33,759 nucleotides of DNA from Gammaproteobacteria bacterium. Lineage in GTDB: Bacteria > Pseudomonadota > Gammaproteobacteria > Arenicellales > UBA868. The position numbers and the translations under genes were made by a program. Under the pieces are notes generated by a model. That model did not search any database, had not been told where the DNA came from, and worked only from the letters and a program-made list of their open reading frames with translations. The stretch is taken from positions 1 to 33,759 of the forward strand of contig JAAZYQ010000010.1 in NCBI GenBank assembly GCA_014239575.1. Direction: 5' to 3'. Position 1 is the stretch's first letter. Each line of letters opens with the position of its first letter. Positions 1,276 through 9,653 of this stretch are shown in pieces.

Positions 1276-1917
1276 TCAGGCCGTTGGCAGTTCGATATCC
1301 AAACACCGCCATAGATACCAGGTCGCAACGGATCGATAGGGTTGCCAACGCCTGCCGGCCCGTGCCAATCGTGAGGGTTTTGGCAATGTCGCCAGTCGGC
1401 GCATTTTCTGGTAGCCCTTGAGTACGCCCAGGTCCCGGGTTGGAAGCACATCCGCGCGACCCAGATAAAAAATAAGCAGCATCTGCACCGTCCATTCGCC
1501 CACACCACGCACCTCGCTCAGGCGCTCGATAATCAACTCATCACTCATCGTGTGCAAAGCCCGAGTATCCGGTAACTGACCAGCGGCACCGCGGCCGGCC
1601 AAGTCTAAAAGGGCAATACATTTAGACCGCGAAAGCCCTGCCGCCCGCAACCGTTCGACGGGCATGGCCAGTAACTGTCCCGGAGCGACCCGCCGACCCG
1701 GAAACAGGTCCAGCAATCGCCCATGGATGGTAGATGCGGCTTTGCCGCTCAGTTGCTGATAGACGATAGAGCGACACAAATACTCGAAGACTGACCGATT
1801 GCGACGCACCTCGAGTTGCAAGTCACCCACTCCAGCCATGATTCGAGCCAAACCCTTATCGCGCTGGGCCAGGTAGGCGCAAGCGACCGCTGGATCAAAT
1901 TGTTGAAGGCGGCTCAT
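1276..1917 (-). CDS. DNA-3-methyladenine glycosylase 2 family protein (HhH-GPD)
   Basis: HhH-GPD motif LSEVRGVGEWTVQMLLIFYLGRADVLPTRDLGV, with the catalytic Asp of the family. Confidence 0.9.
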   Translation of the reverse strand: MSRLQQFDPAVACAYLAQRDKGLARIMAGVGDLQLEVRRNRSVFEYLCRSIVYQQLSGKAASTIHGRLLDLFPGRRVAPGQLLAMPVERLRAAGLSRSKCIALLDLAGRGAAGQLPDTRALHTMSDELIIERLSEVRGVGEWTVQMLLIFYLGRADVLPTRDLGVLKGYQKMRRLATLPKPSRLARAGRRWQPYRSVATWYLWRCLDIELPTA

Positions 1918-2509
1918 CAGATGCTATCCGTAATCGGCCGGTGGAGCACTTGCGATCCAAATCCCACAGATCGATCTCATCGTTGTCTTGGCGAAACGAA
2001 TTCAGGCATTCCCGAGTAAAGCAGTGACTCAGTTGGGCTTTGATTGCCATGTTGACCCCCTGGTGACCAACCAGCAGTATATCGCCGACGCTGTCATCCA
2101 AGTTAGCCGCAAAGTCCTTAATCCGACAAGCGACATCACGGATCCCCTCCCCCCCGGGCGGAGGTTTAAGATAGCATCCTTGGCGCCAGTCATCATAGGC
2201 ATCGCTGTCACCGGCCCGAATCTCTGATTCGAGGCGACCTTCGTAATCCCCCAGATCAAGTTCAACCAGGGCGGACTCAACCGCAACATCGAGTCCCAGC
2301 GTTTGCCCGAGAATCGCCGCGGTTTCCCGCGCCCGCTCAAGCGGTGATGAAAACATCTGAATCGGGACGAATCCACGAGCCTTCAATAAATCGCCCAGTT
2401 TTTTAGCTTGCTGATAGCCCAGGGCATTCAAGGGGATATCACTTCGAGACTGCCAACGGTGGGCGACATTCCAATCAGTCTGTCCATGACGGGCAATTAA
2501 CAGGGCCAT
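1895..2509 (-). CDS. Histidine phosphatase family protein (phosphoglycerate mutase-like)
   Basis: MALLIARHGQTDWN (RHG motif) at the internal Met at 2509, which fits better than the upstream in-frame start at 2557. Later GHQGVN motif. Overlaps the glycosylase start by 23 nt. Confidence 0.9.
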   Translation of the reverse strand: MALLIARHGQTDWNVAHRWQSRSDIPLNALGYQQAKKLGDLLKARGFVPIQMFSSPLERARETAAILGQTLGLDVAVESALVELDLGDYEGRLESEIRAGDSDAYDDWRQGCYLKPPPGGEGIRDVACRIKDFAANLDDSVGDILLVGHQGVNMAIKAQLSHCFTRECLNSFRQDNDEIDLWDLDRKCSTGRLRIASDEPPSTI

Positions 2510-2648
2510 TAGACACTCCGGCAATAAGGCTGAGGCAAGATTCTTGCCCAAGCCCATAGTTTTTGCTTGAATAAATTCCCAACCGTACTGGCAATGACCG
2601 CGCCCTTAACTGAGTCGATGAAAAAACGGGATAGTTTGTGATCCGATG

Positions 2649-2677
2649 TTGACATGTTTTAGGGGTCTGGGTATTAT
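2649..2677 (+). promoter_or_regulatory. Sigma70-type promoter driving an orphan short transcript
   Basis: TTGACA (2649-2654), 17-nt spacer, TATTAT (2672-2677). Predicted TSS around 2684. Confidence 0.75.
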
Positions 2678-2683
2678 GTATAC

Positions 2684-2766
2684 AGAATTTGTGCATTGCA
2701 CGATTCTTTTCTCATATCCTCCTCCTTAGATTAATCCCGTCACACTCTTGTGACGGGATTTTTTTT
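2684..2766 (+). ncRNA. Candidate small regulatory RNA (~83 nt) with anti-Shine-Dalgarno tract
   Basis: Near-consensus promoter directly upstream. 5' stem-loop GAAT-tt-GTGC-att-GCAC-g-ATTC (2685-2706), pyrimidine-rich TCCTCCTCCTT (2717-2727), terminator hairpin plus T-run (2734-2766). No ATG-initiated ORF inside. Confidence 0.65.
2734..2766 (+). terminator. Rho-independent terminator
   Basis: ATCCCGTCAC-actctt-GTGACGGGAT (10-bp perfect stem, 6-nt loop) followed by a T-run. Confidence 0.93.
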
Positions 2767-2807: not shown

Positions 2808-3127
2808 GATATTCACTACTTAAATATTGGTTCATATCTTATATTTTTTAGGATTTGATAGGCATTCTCTATCATTAATAAATTAATATTAATTTGCTGC
2901 AGTGCACTATTTTAGATCGAATACACTGTTATCTTAGATCATCAACCCAAGCCGACAACATATCGTTTTCTCAGGCCAGCCCTACCCTTTAAAGACTCTC
3001 CTACTCAATTTAGGTGTGGATCTCCAACACCTGTTCGCCGCTTGCGCACCAGTACAAGCCGTTGAGGCAGACGATACAATCGGCTCGCCCTGCACCGCGT
3101 AGCGCCTATCCTAAAAAGTGAGATTTC

Positions 3128-4105
3128 ATGGCAACTTCCCCAATCCTTTTTGTTTTTCCGGGTCAAGGATCACAATATCCAGGCATCGGTAAAGATCTAT
3201 TTGACGCATTCGAGTCGGTACGGCAACTCTATGGCGAGGCCAGCGAGGTCCTAGGTTACGACCTTGCGCAACTATCCTTTGAAGACCCTGAAGGGAAAAT
3301 CAACCTGACCCGCTATACCCAGCCGGTCTTGTTGACACACTCTCTTTCCTGTCTTCAGGCATTCCAGGAAATGACCAACGGCAAAGTTAGCCCAGGTCTA
3401 ACCGCCGGCCATAGCCTGGGAGAGTATTCCGCGCTGGTTGCAGCTGGCGCTTTGGATTTTCCTTCTGCTCTTCAATTAGTAAAAACCAGAGGTCAACTTA
3501 TGGGAGATCTGGGAGATGGCGAGATGGAGGCCCTGCCATTACCCATTGAAAGCGCTCAGGAGTTGGCTGAACAGCATTACTGTGCCGTAGCAGCATGCAA
3601 CCTGCCCGACCAAACCGTTGTTGGGGGGCGCGCCGAGGATTTGGATGCTCTGGTCAATGACCTCCAGGAGCGCTACCCCGGAAAACGCACCGCGCGACTC
3701 AAAACCGAAGGTGCGTTTCACACTTTCTACATGATCGAGGCCGCCCTACAATTCCGCGAAGCTCTGAGTGGTACACCTTTTTCCTCGCCGGCCATCGAAG
3801 TACTCTCCAACAGCTCCGGCGTCTTTCACCGCAAAGACTCAAACAGTATCCGGGCAGGGCTTTTTTCGCAGCTCTTTAACCCGGTGCAGTGGCATGGGAA
3901 TCTCATGCACGCCGCGACCCAAGGTTGCGACACCATTATTGAGTTCGGTGGCGGCATCGGCAAAGGTGAAACAGCCGCCGAGAAAAAACCCAATCTCGCC
4001 AGCATCATCAAGAAGTCGTTTCGCCGCCAGCCAAACCCGCCGCGCTACCTAAGTGTGATCAACCAGGAAACTCTGTCAGAAGCTGCATCAGTCTTTCGGC
4101 CGTAG
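3128..4105 (+). CDS. ACP S-malonyltransferase-like acyltransferase (FabD-like, standalone)
   Basis: FVFPGQGSQYPGIG, nucleophile elbow GHSLGEYSALVAAG, KTRGQLM arginine, AFHTFYM histidine motif. No fab cluster around it. Confidence 0.88.
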   Translation: MATSPILFVFPGQGSQYPGIGKDLFDAFESVRQLYGEASEVLGYDLAQLSFEDPEGKINLTRYTQPVLLTHSLSCLQAFQEMTNGKVSPGLTAGHSLGEYSALVAAGALDFPSALQLVKTRGQLMGDLGDGEMEALPLPIESAQELAEQHYCAVAACNLPDQTVVGGRAEDLDALVNDLQERYPGKRTARLKTEGAFHTFYMIEAALQFREALSGTPFSSPAIEVLSNSSGVFHRKDSNSIRAGLFSQLFNPVQWHGNLMHAATQGCDTIIEFGGGIGKGETAAEKKPNLASIIKKSFRRQPNPPRYLSVINQETLSEAASVFRP

Positions 4106-6377: not shown

Positions 6378-9300
6378 TCACATGCCGCGGCGATATTTTC
6401 CACCCACTTGAAAAAACGTGTCAGTCAGTTGGCCGAGGGAACAGCACCGAGCCGCCTCCATAAGTGGGTAAAAAACATTCTCTCCATGCAAAACAGCGTA
6501 TTTGACGGCGTCAAGTGCCGGGCCGGTCTGGTTTTCATGACGGTGCTTAAAATCGGCAAGTCGGTCCAGCTGGCCCTGTTTTTCCGTTTCGGTGCCTCGA
6601 GCCAACTCGACATCGGCTGATGTGCCAACCGCATCCCTGACAAAAGAGTTAACACCGATAATCGGGTAACTGCCGTCATGTTTGCGGGTTTCATAATACA
6701 AAGACTCTTCTTGTATCTTGCCTCGCTGGTAGCCGGTTTCCATCGCTCCTAAGACCCCGCCGCGCTCTGCCAGACGATCGAACTCTGCGAGTACCGCCTG
6801 CTCAACCAGATCGGTAAGCTCCTCGATGATGAAACTGCCCTGATGGGGGTTTTCGTTGCGTGCCAGCCCCCATTCACGATTGATGATCAACTGTATAGCC
6901 ATCGCCCTTCGCACTGAATCTTCGCTAGGCGTTGTGACTGCCTCATCATGGGCATTGGTATGCAAACTGTTGCAATTGTCGTAAACCGCGATCAAAGCCT
7001 GAAGTGTGGTACGAATATCATTGAAACCCATCTCTTGTGCATGCAAAGAACGACCCGAAGTCTGGATATGGTATTTCAGTCTCTGGCTGCGGGCATTCGC
7101 ACCATAGCGCTCCCGCATGGCAACCGCCCAGACCCGTCGCGCGACGCGCCCCATCACGGTGTACTCGGGGTCCATGCCATTGGAAAAAAAGAAAGACAGG
7201 TTTGGTGCAAAATCATCGATCTCCATACCACGGGCCAGGTAGGATTCCACATAGGTAAAGCCGTTTGCCAGGGTGAGTGCGAGCTGGGTGATCGGATTAG
7301 CACCTGCCTCGGCAATGTGATAGCCGGAGATGGAGACCGAGTAGAACTTACGGACCCGGTTATCAATGAAGTACTGCTGAATATCACCCATCATGCTCAA
7401 ACTGAAATCAGTGGAAAAAAGACAGGTGTTTTGCCCCTGGTCTTCCTTGAGGATATCGGCCTGGACCGTGCCACGGACATTTTCCAGCGTCCACGACCGA
7501 ATTTTGGATAGCGCCTTTGCGTCCGGATCCCGGCCGTGCTCCTCACAAAATCGCTCGACCTGTTGATCAATGGCCGTGTTGAGAAAAAATGCCAGGACAG
7601 TCGGTGCCGGACCGTTAATGGTCATGGATACCGATGTGGTCGGGCTGCAAAGGTCAAAACCCTGATAGAGCGTCCGCATGTCCTCCACGGTCGCGATAGA
7701 AACACCAGAGGTGCCGACCTTGCCGTAGATATCCGGGCGTAGTGCCGGGTCGGATCCATACAGGGTCACTGAATCAAAAGCCGTAGATAGGCGTTTGGCC
7801 TCGGAATTAGCAGACAAAAGCTTGAAACGACGATTGGTGCGCGAGGCGTCACCCTCCCCGGCAAACATACGGGTCGGATCTTCGTTCTCGCGTTTGAAAG
7901 GGAATACCCCTGCGGTAAATGGAAATTCTCCCGGCACGTTTTCCAGCAACTGCCAGATCAAACGATCCCCAGCGTCGGTATATCGAGGCAGGCTGACACG
8001 GGGAATCCGAGTGCCAGACAAAGAGGTATAACTGAGTGTCTGCTCCCGCACTTTACCGCCCACGCGAATACTCAGGCTATCCTGACAGTAGCGTTCAATC
8101 AAAGAATCGAATCCATTGATCTGTTCCAGCATTTCTTCGCCCAGCTTCTCCGCCACATCCTCAGCCAGCGCCTGAAGTGTCTCGGTCGGCTCTTCTGCCG
8201 CTGCAAGCAGATCGATACAACTGTTCAGATGCTGGTATCGACGCGCCAAAACCGCCTGACTTTCCACCGCCTCGTGGTAGAGGCGAACAGCATTGGATAT
8301 CTCAGACAGATAACGCTCACGACCAACGGGCACTACATCGGCCTGCTTCAAATTCAGCTGTGGGTCAGGCAGCAACCCAAGGCTCGGGGTCAGTCCATAC
8401 GCCACCAGAGCGGTATTAAGGGCCCGATACAGTGCGGTGACACCCTGGTCATTAAAATGCGATGCCGTGGTTGTGTATACCGGCATAGCCGTGGGCTCCA
8501 CACTGAAGTCACCCCGGTTCCGCTGTACCTGCTTACGGACGTCTCGCAAAGCGTCCTCGGCACCTTTGCGATCACACTTGTTGATTGCGATGAAATCCGC
8601 ATGATCCAGCATTTCGATCTTCTCAAGCTGTGACGGGGCGCCAAATTCCGGTGTCATGACATACAGTGCACAATCCACCTGAGAGACGATGCCGGCGTCA
8701 CCCTGGCCGATGCCAGGGGTCTCTATGATGATCAGGTCAAAGCCAGCACACTGGCAGGCAGCGAGGATATCCCCGATCTGCGGCGGTATCTCGGCGCTCG
8801 CACCGCGGGTCGCCAGGGAACGAAAAAATACGGCGTCTCCGTCAATCGCATTCATGCGGATACGATCTCCAAGCAAAGCGCCGCCGGTCTTGCGTCGAGT
8901 TGGGTCCACGGCAAGTACTGCCAGGCGCAGGCGATCACCATAATCCATACGCCAGCGCAGAATCAGCTCATCGGTCAATGAAGATTTACCCGAGCCGCCA
9001 GTGCCAGTGATCCCCAAAATCGGTACCCGGCACTCTTCACGAGCCGCACCCGCGCGGACCTGACGCAGAATAAGTTCACTGGCAGTCCCATTTTCGATCT
9101 CGGTAATCAGCCGAGCCAGTGGCCCGCCATCATACCCATCCAGTCCGTCCAGATTCTCTTTACCCTGATCGCCAGGATAAAAATCGGCTTGCGTCATCAT
9201 GTCATCGATCATGCCCTGTAAGCCAAGGCGCTGGCCATCCTCTGGCGAATAGATACGACAGACCCCGTAATCGTGCAGTGCACGGACCTCTTCGGGAACG

Positions 9301-9653
9301 ATCACCCCGCCGCCGCCGCCGAAGACGCGTATATCTCCCCGGCCGCGTTGGCGCAGCATATCGACCATGTAGGAGAAGAACTCACTGTGGCCGCCCTGGT
9401 AGGAACTAACCGCAATGCCCTGCACATCTTCTTCGATAGCCGCATCCACAATTTCCTGGACACTGCGATTGTGGCCAAGGTGAATGACCTCTGCACCAGA
9501 GGCTTGTAGCAAGCGGCGGATGATGTTGATGGAAGCATCATGTCCGTCGAACAAGCTCGCCGCCGTAACAAAACGGATTCGGTAGCCCGGATCCGGGTCG
9601 GATCGGGTTTCTGGACTGAACAGGGGGGGTGCACTCTGACTCATCGCTACCAT
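6378..9653 (-). CDS. icmF: Fused isobutyryl-CoA mutase/GTPase
   Basis: 1091 aa: N-terminal B12-binding domain (DGHDASINIIRRLLQASGAEVIHLGHNRS), MeaB-like GTPase with GTGGSGKSSL Walker A, C-terminal methylmalonyl-CoA-mutase-type barrel (TTSVSMTINGPAP; RVARRVWAVAMRERYGA; QTSGRSLHAQEM). Confidence 0.96.
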   Translation of the reverse strand: MVAMSQSAPPLFSPETRSDPDPGYRIRFVTAASLFDGHDASINIIRRLLQASGAEVIHLGHNRSVQEIVDAAIEEDVQGIAVSSYQGGHSEFFSYMVDMLRQRGRGDIRVFGGGGGVIVPEEVRALHDYGVCRIYSPEDGQRLGLQGMIDDMMTQADFYPGDQGKENLDGLDGYDGGPLARLITEIENGTASELILRQVRAGAAREECRVPILGITGTGGSGKSSLTDELILRWRMDYGDRLRLAVLAVDPTRRKTGGALLGDRIRMNAIDGDAVFFRSLATRGASAEIPPQIGDILAACQCAGFDLIIIETPGIGQGDAGIVSQVDCALYVMTPEFGAPSQLEKIEMLDHADFIAINKCDRKGAEDALRDVRKQVQRNRGDFSVEPTAMPVYTTTASHFNDQGVTALYRALNTALVAYGLTPSLGLLPDPQLNLKQADVVPVGRERYLSEISNAVRLYHEAVESQAVLARRYQHLNSCIDLLAAAEEPTETLQALAEDVAEKLGEEMLEQINGFDSLIERYCQDSLSIRVGGKVREQTLSYTSLSGTRIPRVSLPRYTDAGDRLIWQLLENVPGEFPFTAGVFPFKRENEDPTRMFAGEGDASRTNRRFKLLSANSEAKRLSTAFDSVTLYGSDPALRPDIYGKVGTSGVSIATVEDMRTLYQGFDLCSPTTSVSMTINGPAPTVLAFFLNTAIDQQVERFCEEHGRDPDAKALSKIRSWTLENVRGTVQADILKEDQGQNTCLFSTDFSLSMMGDIQQYFIDNRVRKFYSVSISGYHIAEAGANPITQLALTLANGFTYVESYLARGMEIDDFAPNLSFFFSNGMDPEYTVMGRVARRVWAVAMRERYGANARSQRLKYHIQTSGRSLHAQEMGFNDIRTTLQALIAVYDNCNSLHTNAHDEAVTTPSEDSVRRAMAIQLIINREWGLARNENPHQGSFIIEELTDLVEQAVLAEFDRLAERGGVLGAMETGYQRGKIQEESLYYETRKHDGSYPIIGVNSFVRDAVGTSADVELARGTETEKQGQLDRLADFKHRHENQTGPALDAVKYAVLHGENVFYPLMEAARCCSLGQLTDTFFQVGGKYRRGM

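Follow-up and report, generated by a model that had tools for sequence, protein, structure and literature searches.

A conserved candidate sRNA gene with an anti-SD linker and a predicted PhaR operator in uncultured marine Gammaproteobacteria

MmgR (alpha-r8, RF00519 'suhB') of Sinorhizobium meliloti is a short Hfq-type sRNA in which a CUCC anti-SD core is followed by UAGA and a terminator, an arrangement shared by the locus described here. PhaR (AniA) represses MmgR, an Hfq-dependent anti-SD sRNA, via a TGC-N3-GCA site (PMC12542648, PMC7143759). The published PhaR motifs are TGCRNYGCASMA (PMC6201568) as well as TG[N]TGC[N]3GCAA and CTGC[N]3GCAG (PMC3206438), and the Sinorhizobium phaP1 site reads TTATTGTGCACTGCACAAATT (PMC12542648). 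Other described RNAs resemble the locus in further respects. The RF02278 'Betaproteobacteria toxic sRNA' family (ncS27/bdhR1, Bordetella S17) likewise has a CU-rich anti-SD motif and a U-tailed terminator, occurs as siblings within one genome and has predicted carbon and transporter targets (PMC5688073, PMC11722255). NmsRA/NmsRB of Neisseria (RF02877) are siblings with a single-stranded anti-SD region between stem-loops 1 and 2 (PMC5362039); SisA-D of Caulobacter crescentus are four siblings with a common anti-SD 10-mer (PMC12559287); and alpha-r14/NfeR1 (RF02344) of the Rhizobiales combines an CCUCCUCCC anti-SD motif with transport targets (PMC3927594, PMC7143759). Judged by its sequence conservation, the feature reported here is a real non-coding sRNA gene that carries a promoter and a terminator of its own.

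Layout and conservation of the locus

The window, meaning the whole 33.8-kb stretch of DNA that was analysed, contains the predicted gene and its surroundings as follows:

1895-2557, minus strand: histidine phosphatase gene (PF00300; alternative ATG at 2509), the upstream divergent neighbour, syntenic in the genus
2649-2654, plus strand: -35 element TTGACA; TTGAC invariant in 19/19 aligned homologues
2672-2677, plus strand: -10 element TATTAT, conserved, 17-nt spacer from the -35
2684-2766, plus strand: predicted sRNA of ~83 nt, hit by covariance model R1
2689-2703, no strand assigned: palindrome TTGTGCATTGCACGA, predicted PhaR operator (~+6 to +20) and 5' stem-loop of the RNA; strict match to TGCRNYGCASMA
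2712-2732, plus strand: single-stranded linker with predicted anti-SD seed UAUCCUCCUCC (2715-2725)
2733-2766, plus strand: rho-independent terminator, 12-bp stem and T8
2893-2916, no strand assigned: second conserved TGCRNYGCA, predicted second PhaR site; strict match on the minus strand at 2895-2906
3075-3080, plus strand: TACAAT, probably the -10 of a separate promoter for the FabD-like gene; TA(A/C)AAT equivalently placed in most genus members
3128-4105, plus strand: FabD-like acyltransferase gene (PF00698), the syntenic downstream neighbour

The promoter TTGACA-N17-TATTAT, named in the original prediction, holds up with 11/12 consensus matches, and transcription is predicted to start at about 2684, 7 nt 3' of the -10. 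The terminator hairpin and T-run also stand, with a stem (2733-2760) of 12 bp and not the 10 bp given previously, followed by T8 at 2759-2766. Compared with shuffled sequences, the predicted 83-nt RNA has a much more stable fold (-27.4 kcal/mol vs -10.2 +/- 2.5, z = -6.9). It would begin with a palindrome spanning 2684-2707, followed by a linker whose mean unpaired probability in the fold computation is 0.99. Promoter-like matches in the 3-kb region numbered 4 vs 2.8 expected, which is not beyond chance, so the reality of the gene rests on its conservation; terminators in the same region numbered 7 vs 3.0 expected. Elsewhere in the window (6378-9653), B12-binding, MeaB and methylmalonyl-CoA-mutase domains are fused in one protein, an IcmF-like layout.

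A blastn search recovered the gene in 18/20 same-genus genomes, and covariance model R1 gave hits in 18/20 genus genomes and in three genomes of another family (f7; Arenicellales by one record title). Promoter, linker and terminator are all kept among the homologues of both groups. Against diverging surroundings, the alignment retains TTGAC, the -10, the core of the palindrome, T-TCCTCCTCC and the terminator, whose stem shows compensatory UA/GC and CG/UA changes; TCCTCCTCC is identical in 19/19 aligned homologues. The conserved single-stranded linker reads U-UCCUCCUCC in the RNA, and positions 2715-2725 of the window read TATCCTCCTCC at the DNA level. In all genus contigs that extend sufficiently, the sRNA lies between the histidine phosphatase and FabD-like genes; another genus of its family (g4) has the same arrangement, and in f7 the sRNA lies upstream of FabD. 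The two genus genomes in which it is missing are incomplete assemblies and also lack the neighbouring FabD gene. R1 also picks up weaker relatives in two more genera of the same family; under stricter filters, its one match among 369 class genomes is the window itself, and a scan of viral contigs found nothing. Public records that match the sRNA are marine MAGs titled Gammaproteobacteria, Acidiferrobacteraceae or Arenicellales, among others.

The 5' palindrome and PhaR-like sites

All homologues of the genus and f7 (21/21) have a strict TGCRNYGCASMA operator at the sRNA promoter, on one strand or both; those of two more genera (L049, L050) lack it. Two strict matches are present in the window, both in this intergenic region, against about 0.26 expected for random bases. 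The second PhaR-like element is found ~130 nt past the terminator, with some 220 nt separating it from FabD; 16 genus sequences share it, three of them with one mismatch. Searching for TTGTGCANNGCACAA with one mismatch allowed returned more matches than the reversed control in most genus genomes, many of them between genes. In genus genome G012 a perfect copy of the palindrome and a second TGATGCACTGCAAC form a tandem site before a phasin gene. G015, also a genome of the genus, encodes PhaR (TIGR01848 at 151.7 bits vs a cut-off of 109.5; also PF07879 and PF05233) within a phasin-phaA-phaB-phaR cluster, where TATTATTGCACCGCACAATAA precedes phaR and TTATTGTGCACTGCAACAAAT precedes the phasin gene; the incomplete genome to which the window belongs yielded no PhaR. 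In many genus genomes (L181-L187, L190-L192), the intergenic region separating a TauD-like from a nitrite/sulfite-reductase-like gene has TTTTGCANYGCACAAAA beside a palindrome, TATCCCCTTGGGGATA, possibly another PhaR target.

As to the structure of the palindrome itself, every member has A at the first loop position and Y at the third, the second being variable, and this invariant A-N-Y loop fits an operator and not a free triloop. Among 18 sequences, 3-6 have disrupted outer pairs in the 5' stem, and the claim that the stem is proven by covariation is weakened, the two-sided change in f7 fitting an operator equally well. An RNA copy of the 5' stem-loop described originally would indeed fold; the palindrome is nevertheless better explained as a PhaR operator in DNA than as an element conserved for the RNA. 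Because the operator overlaps the 5' hairpin, constraints on DNA and RNA are not fully separable.

The linker, its predicted targets and rival explanations

The reverse complement of the linker, GGAGGAGGATATGA, resembles an SD followed by a start codon. When the linker core was paired computationally with 286 gene starts from a ~0.4-Mb sample of the window's genome, the energies showed one clear dip, at -10 (mean -4.1 vs ~-2.1 kcal/mol), which only 3/60 permuted linkers matched. Hfq is encoded in 20/20 genus genomes, once in each relative and twice in the window's own genome (G000:C311:7585-7770 and G000:C163:297-482), where the doubling is perhaps due to a strain mixture in the assembly. The locus has the sequence features of Hfq-dependent trans-acting sRNAs: its own promoter, a U-tailed terminator, an unpaired seed and Hfq in the genome. 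As the linker pairs with SDs, siblings of the motif exist and every genome has Hfq, the trans-acting, SD-occluding mode of action proposed at the outset is supported as the best inference.

The siblings are further anti-SD loci of the genus that keep the motif in different flanks, likely making the linker the working part. Two types of these RNA-like loci, B and C, recur near one another, some hundreds of nt apart:

L140:1501-1515 (G000:C317:6891-6905), minus strand: type C, AUCCUCCUUCCUCCUCGG and a terminator; also in L131-L145
L140:1784 (G000:C317, ~7174), plus strand: type B, UAUCCUCCUCC or ACUCCUCCUCC and a terminator, without a 5' hairpin

Type C is present in 15/20 genus genomes, the window's own included, and lies upstream of a gene that by its look resembles an FMN-reductase/flavodoxin-like protein. 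Type B, of the form UAUCCUCCUCCUAAAUAUUGACCCCGG and a terminator, is also found in L051, L101, L104, L120, L121, L124, L125 and L129. A separate RNA of the window's genome (G000:C329:9171-9229; L146:1501-1559) scores 50.1 bits for RF02278 against a cut-off of 50, so that RF02278, or something close to it, exists beside this sRNA. It lies upstream of an apparent rplM, placing a betaproteobacterial family in a gammaproteobacterium.

Target predictions were made from crude gene starts. When 1239 G015 gene starts were ranked by pairing, 11 of the top 50 belonged to secreted proteins 240-620 aa long vs 2.1 expected (p = 2e-6), many of these proteins being solute-binding by the look of their sequence, and phaA ranked 25; this ranking correlates at 0.73 with that of a generic anti-SD probe, and the enrichment may therefore only reflect the strong SDs of abundant proteins. 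The solute-binding predictions agree with the transporter targets reported for Bordetella S17 and NfeR1. No mRNA in the window's genome is perfectly complementary, the exact 13-mer GGAGGAGGATATG occurring there only in the sRNA gene itself; one perfect-match gene start was found in G019. The FabD and histidine phosphatase starts are poor candidates (-6.6 to -7.9 kcal/mol) and phasin starts are weak ones (-11 to -12); both sets were discarded.

The most probable interpretation, drawn from sequence comparison, is an anti-SD sRNA that would be repressed by PhaR, released by polyhydroxybutyrate (PHB) and lower the translation of strong-SD mRNAs. PhaR, a repressor that senses PHB granules, would bind at ~+6 to +20 and block transcription of the sRNA; accumulating PHB would titrate PhaR, and the sRNA would be made. 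It would then pair via UAUCCUCCUCC, probably with Hfq, to the SD of strong-SD mRNAs and reduce their translation. Periplasmic solute-binding proteins are likely targets and phaA a possible one, by which uptake and storage would be balanced. Expression, PhaR binding and targets are all predictions.

Several rival explanations have to be weighed against this circuit. The flanking genes had been described as both reading away from the spot, with neither needing the terminator; FabD does read away from the phosphatase, but it is codirectional with the sRNA, and the statement therefore required testing. A cis-acting leader or attenuator, in which the hairpins and terminator control read-through into the FabD-like gene, would account for where they lie: ahead of FabD and on its strand in the genus, g4 and f7. 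However, the gap is ~200-370 nt in most genus members, with little conserved in it except the second PhaR-like element, and ~760-970 nt in f7; FabD has its own likely -10 3' of the terminator, no alternative antiterminator pairing was seen, and the sibling anti-SD loci do not adjoin FabD. Gap lengths and the separate -10 led to its rejection as the main reading, and we consider it very unlikely. A minus-strand small protein, suggested by a reverse complement that reads GGAGGAGGATATG (SD and ATG, literally so in most genus members), is barely conceivable: the ATG is absent in L017 and L019 and shifted in L008, peptide length and frame vary among homologues, and the minus strand has no T-run terminator. 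It was rejected as well.

The two remaining rivals both retain an anti-SD RNA. The palindrome could merely be a protective 5' stem-loop of an sRNA that is free of PhaR control; it folds as a hairpin in 11/11 homologues folded, and the f7 change from TTGTGC..GCACAA to TGCTGC..GCAGCA keeps the pairing. Against this, the fixed loop A and Y are needed by TGCRNYGCA and not by a triloop, and the same palindrome recurs between genes and before phasin and phaR. Absence of PhaR control is improbable. Slightly better placed, though still unlikely, is a broad translation inhibitor of the 'toxic' RF02278 type, slowing growth through no specific targets. The linker is similar to the tail of 16S, RF02278 leads the sub-threshold families, and the same genome has the RNA above the RF02278 cut-off; yet the sRNA itself scores 31.4 bits, short of the gathering score of 50, and its linker lies between the hairpins and not in the first one.

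If the PhaR-controlled sRNA exists as proposed, the PhaR site at its promoter points to a connection of carbon storage with nutrient uptake that had not been described before. A literature search found no paper on an Arenicellales sRNA, and this would be the first described sRNA circuit for the uncultured marine lineage as far as that search reached. PhaR control of an anti-SD sRNA, known from Sinorhizobium, would then also occur in Gammaproteobacteria, raising the testable question of whether the PHB regulator commonly lowers nutrient uptake via an sRNA when storage is full. Model R1 can be used to seek the sRNA in ocean metatranscriptomes.

Comparison with described families

The Rfam scan gave no family at threshold, the best sub-threshold ones being RF02278, VrrA, anti-hemB, ar14 and RF00519 MmgR. 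Besides its score, RF02278 membership fails on structure: the CU-rich motif of that family lies in the first of two hairpins, with CU motifs before and inside it, whereas the linker here is unpaired between two hairpins. RF00519 suhB/MmgR is likewise rejected (21.7 bits in the window, 27.1 in L056 and 31.9 in L006 vs 41), as is RF02344 (23.9 bits vs 58.8), and VrrA and JA04 are both below threshold. The original description of an undescribed sRNA is therefore accurate with respect to Rfam, where the RNA falls outside every family at threshold, but the kind of RNA was already known.

In alpha-r14/NfeR1 the motif is repeated in three hairpin loops. NmsRA/NmsRB have two anti-SD regions and three stem-loops, and the part of the source available reports no PhaR site (PMC5362039). 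SisA-D are alphaproteobacterial and under other control. MmgR is also alphaproteobacterial, and its operator lies at ~-33 to -13 as calculated from coordinates, whereas here the operator is 3' of the start and would be transcribed. Since the RF00519 scores fall short, the claim is that the sRNA would work like MmgR of Sinorhizobium, not that it is MmgR. There is about an even chance that one palindrome is both a PHB-responsive operator at the DNA level and, once transcribed, the 5' stem-loop, in a gammaproteobacterial counterpart of MmgR through which stored PHB feeds back post-transcriptionally on the uptake of solutes and on its own synthesis. As the RNA and its neighbourhood differ from those of MmgR, such a PhaR/anti-SD circuit would either be ancient or have arisen twice. 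The sRNA is a new family of an already known kind, alongside the RF02278 double-hairpin RNAs, MmgR, NmsR and SisA-D.
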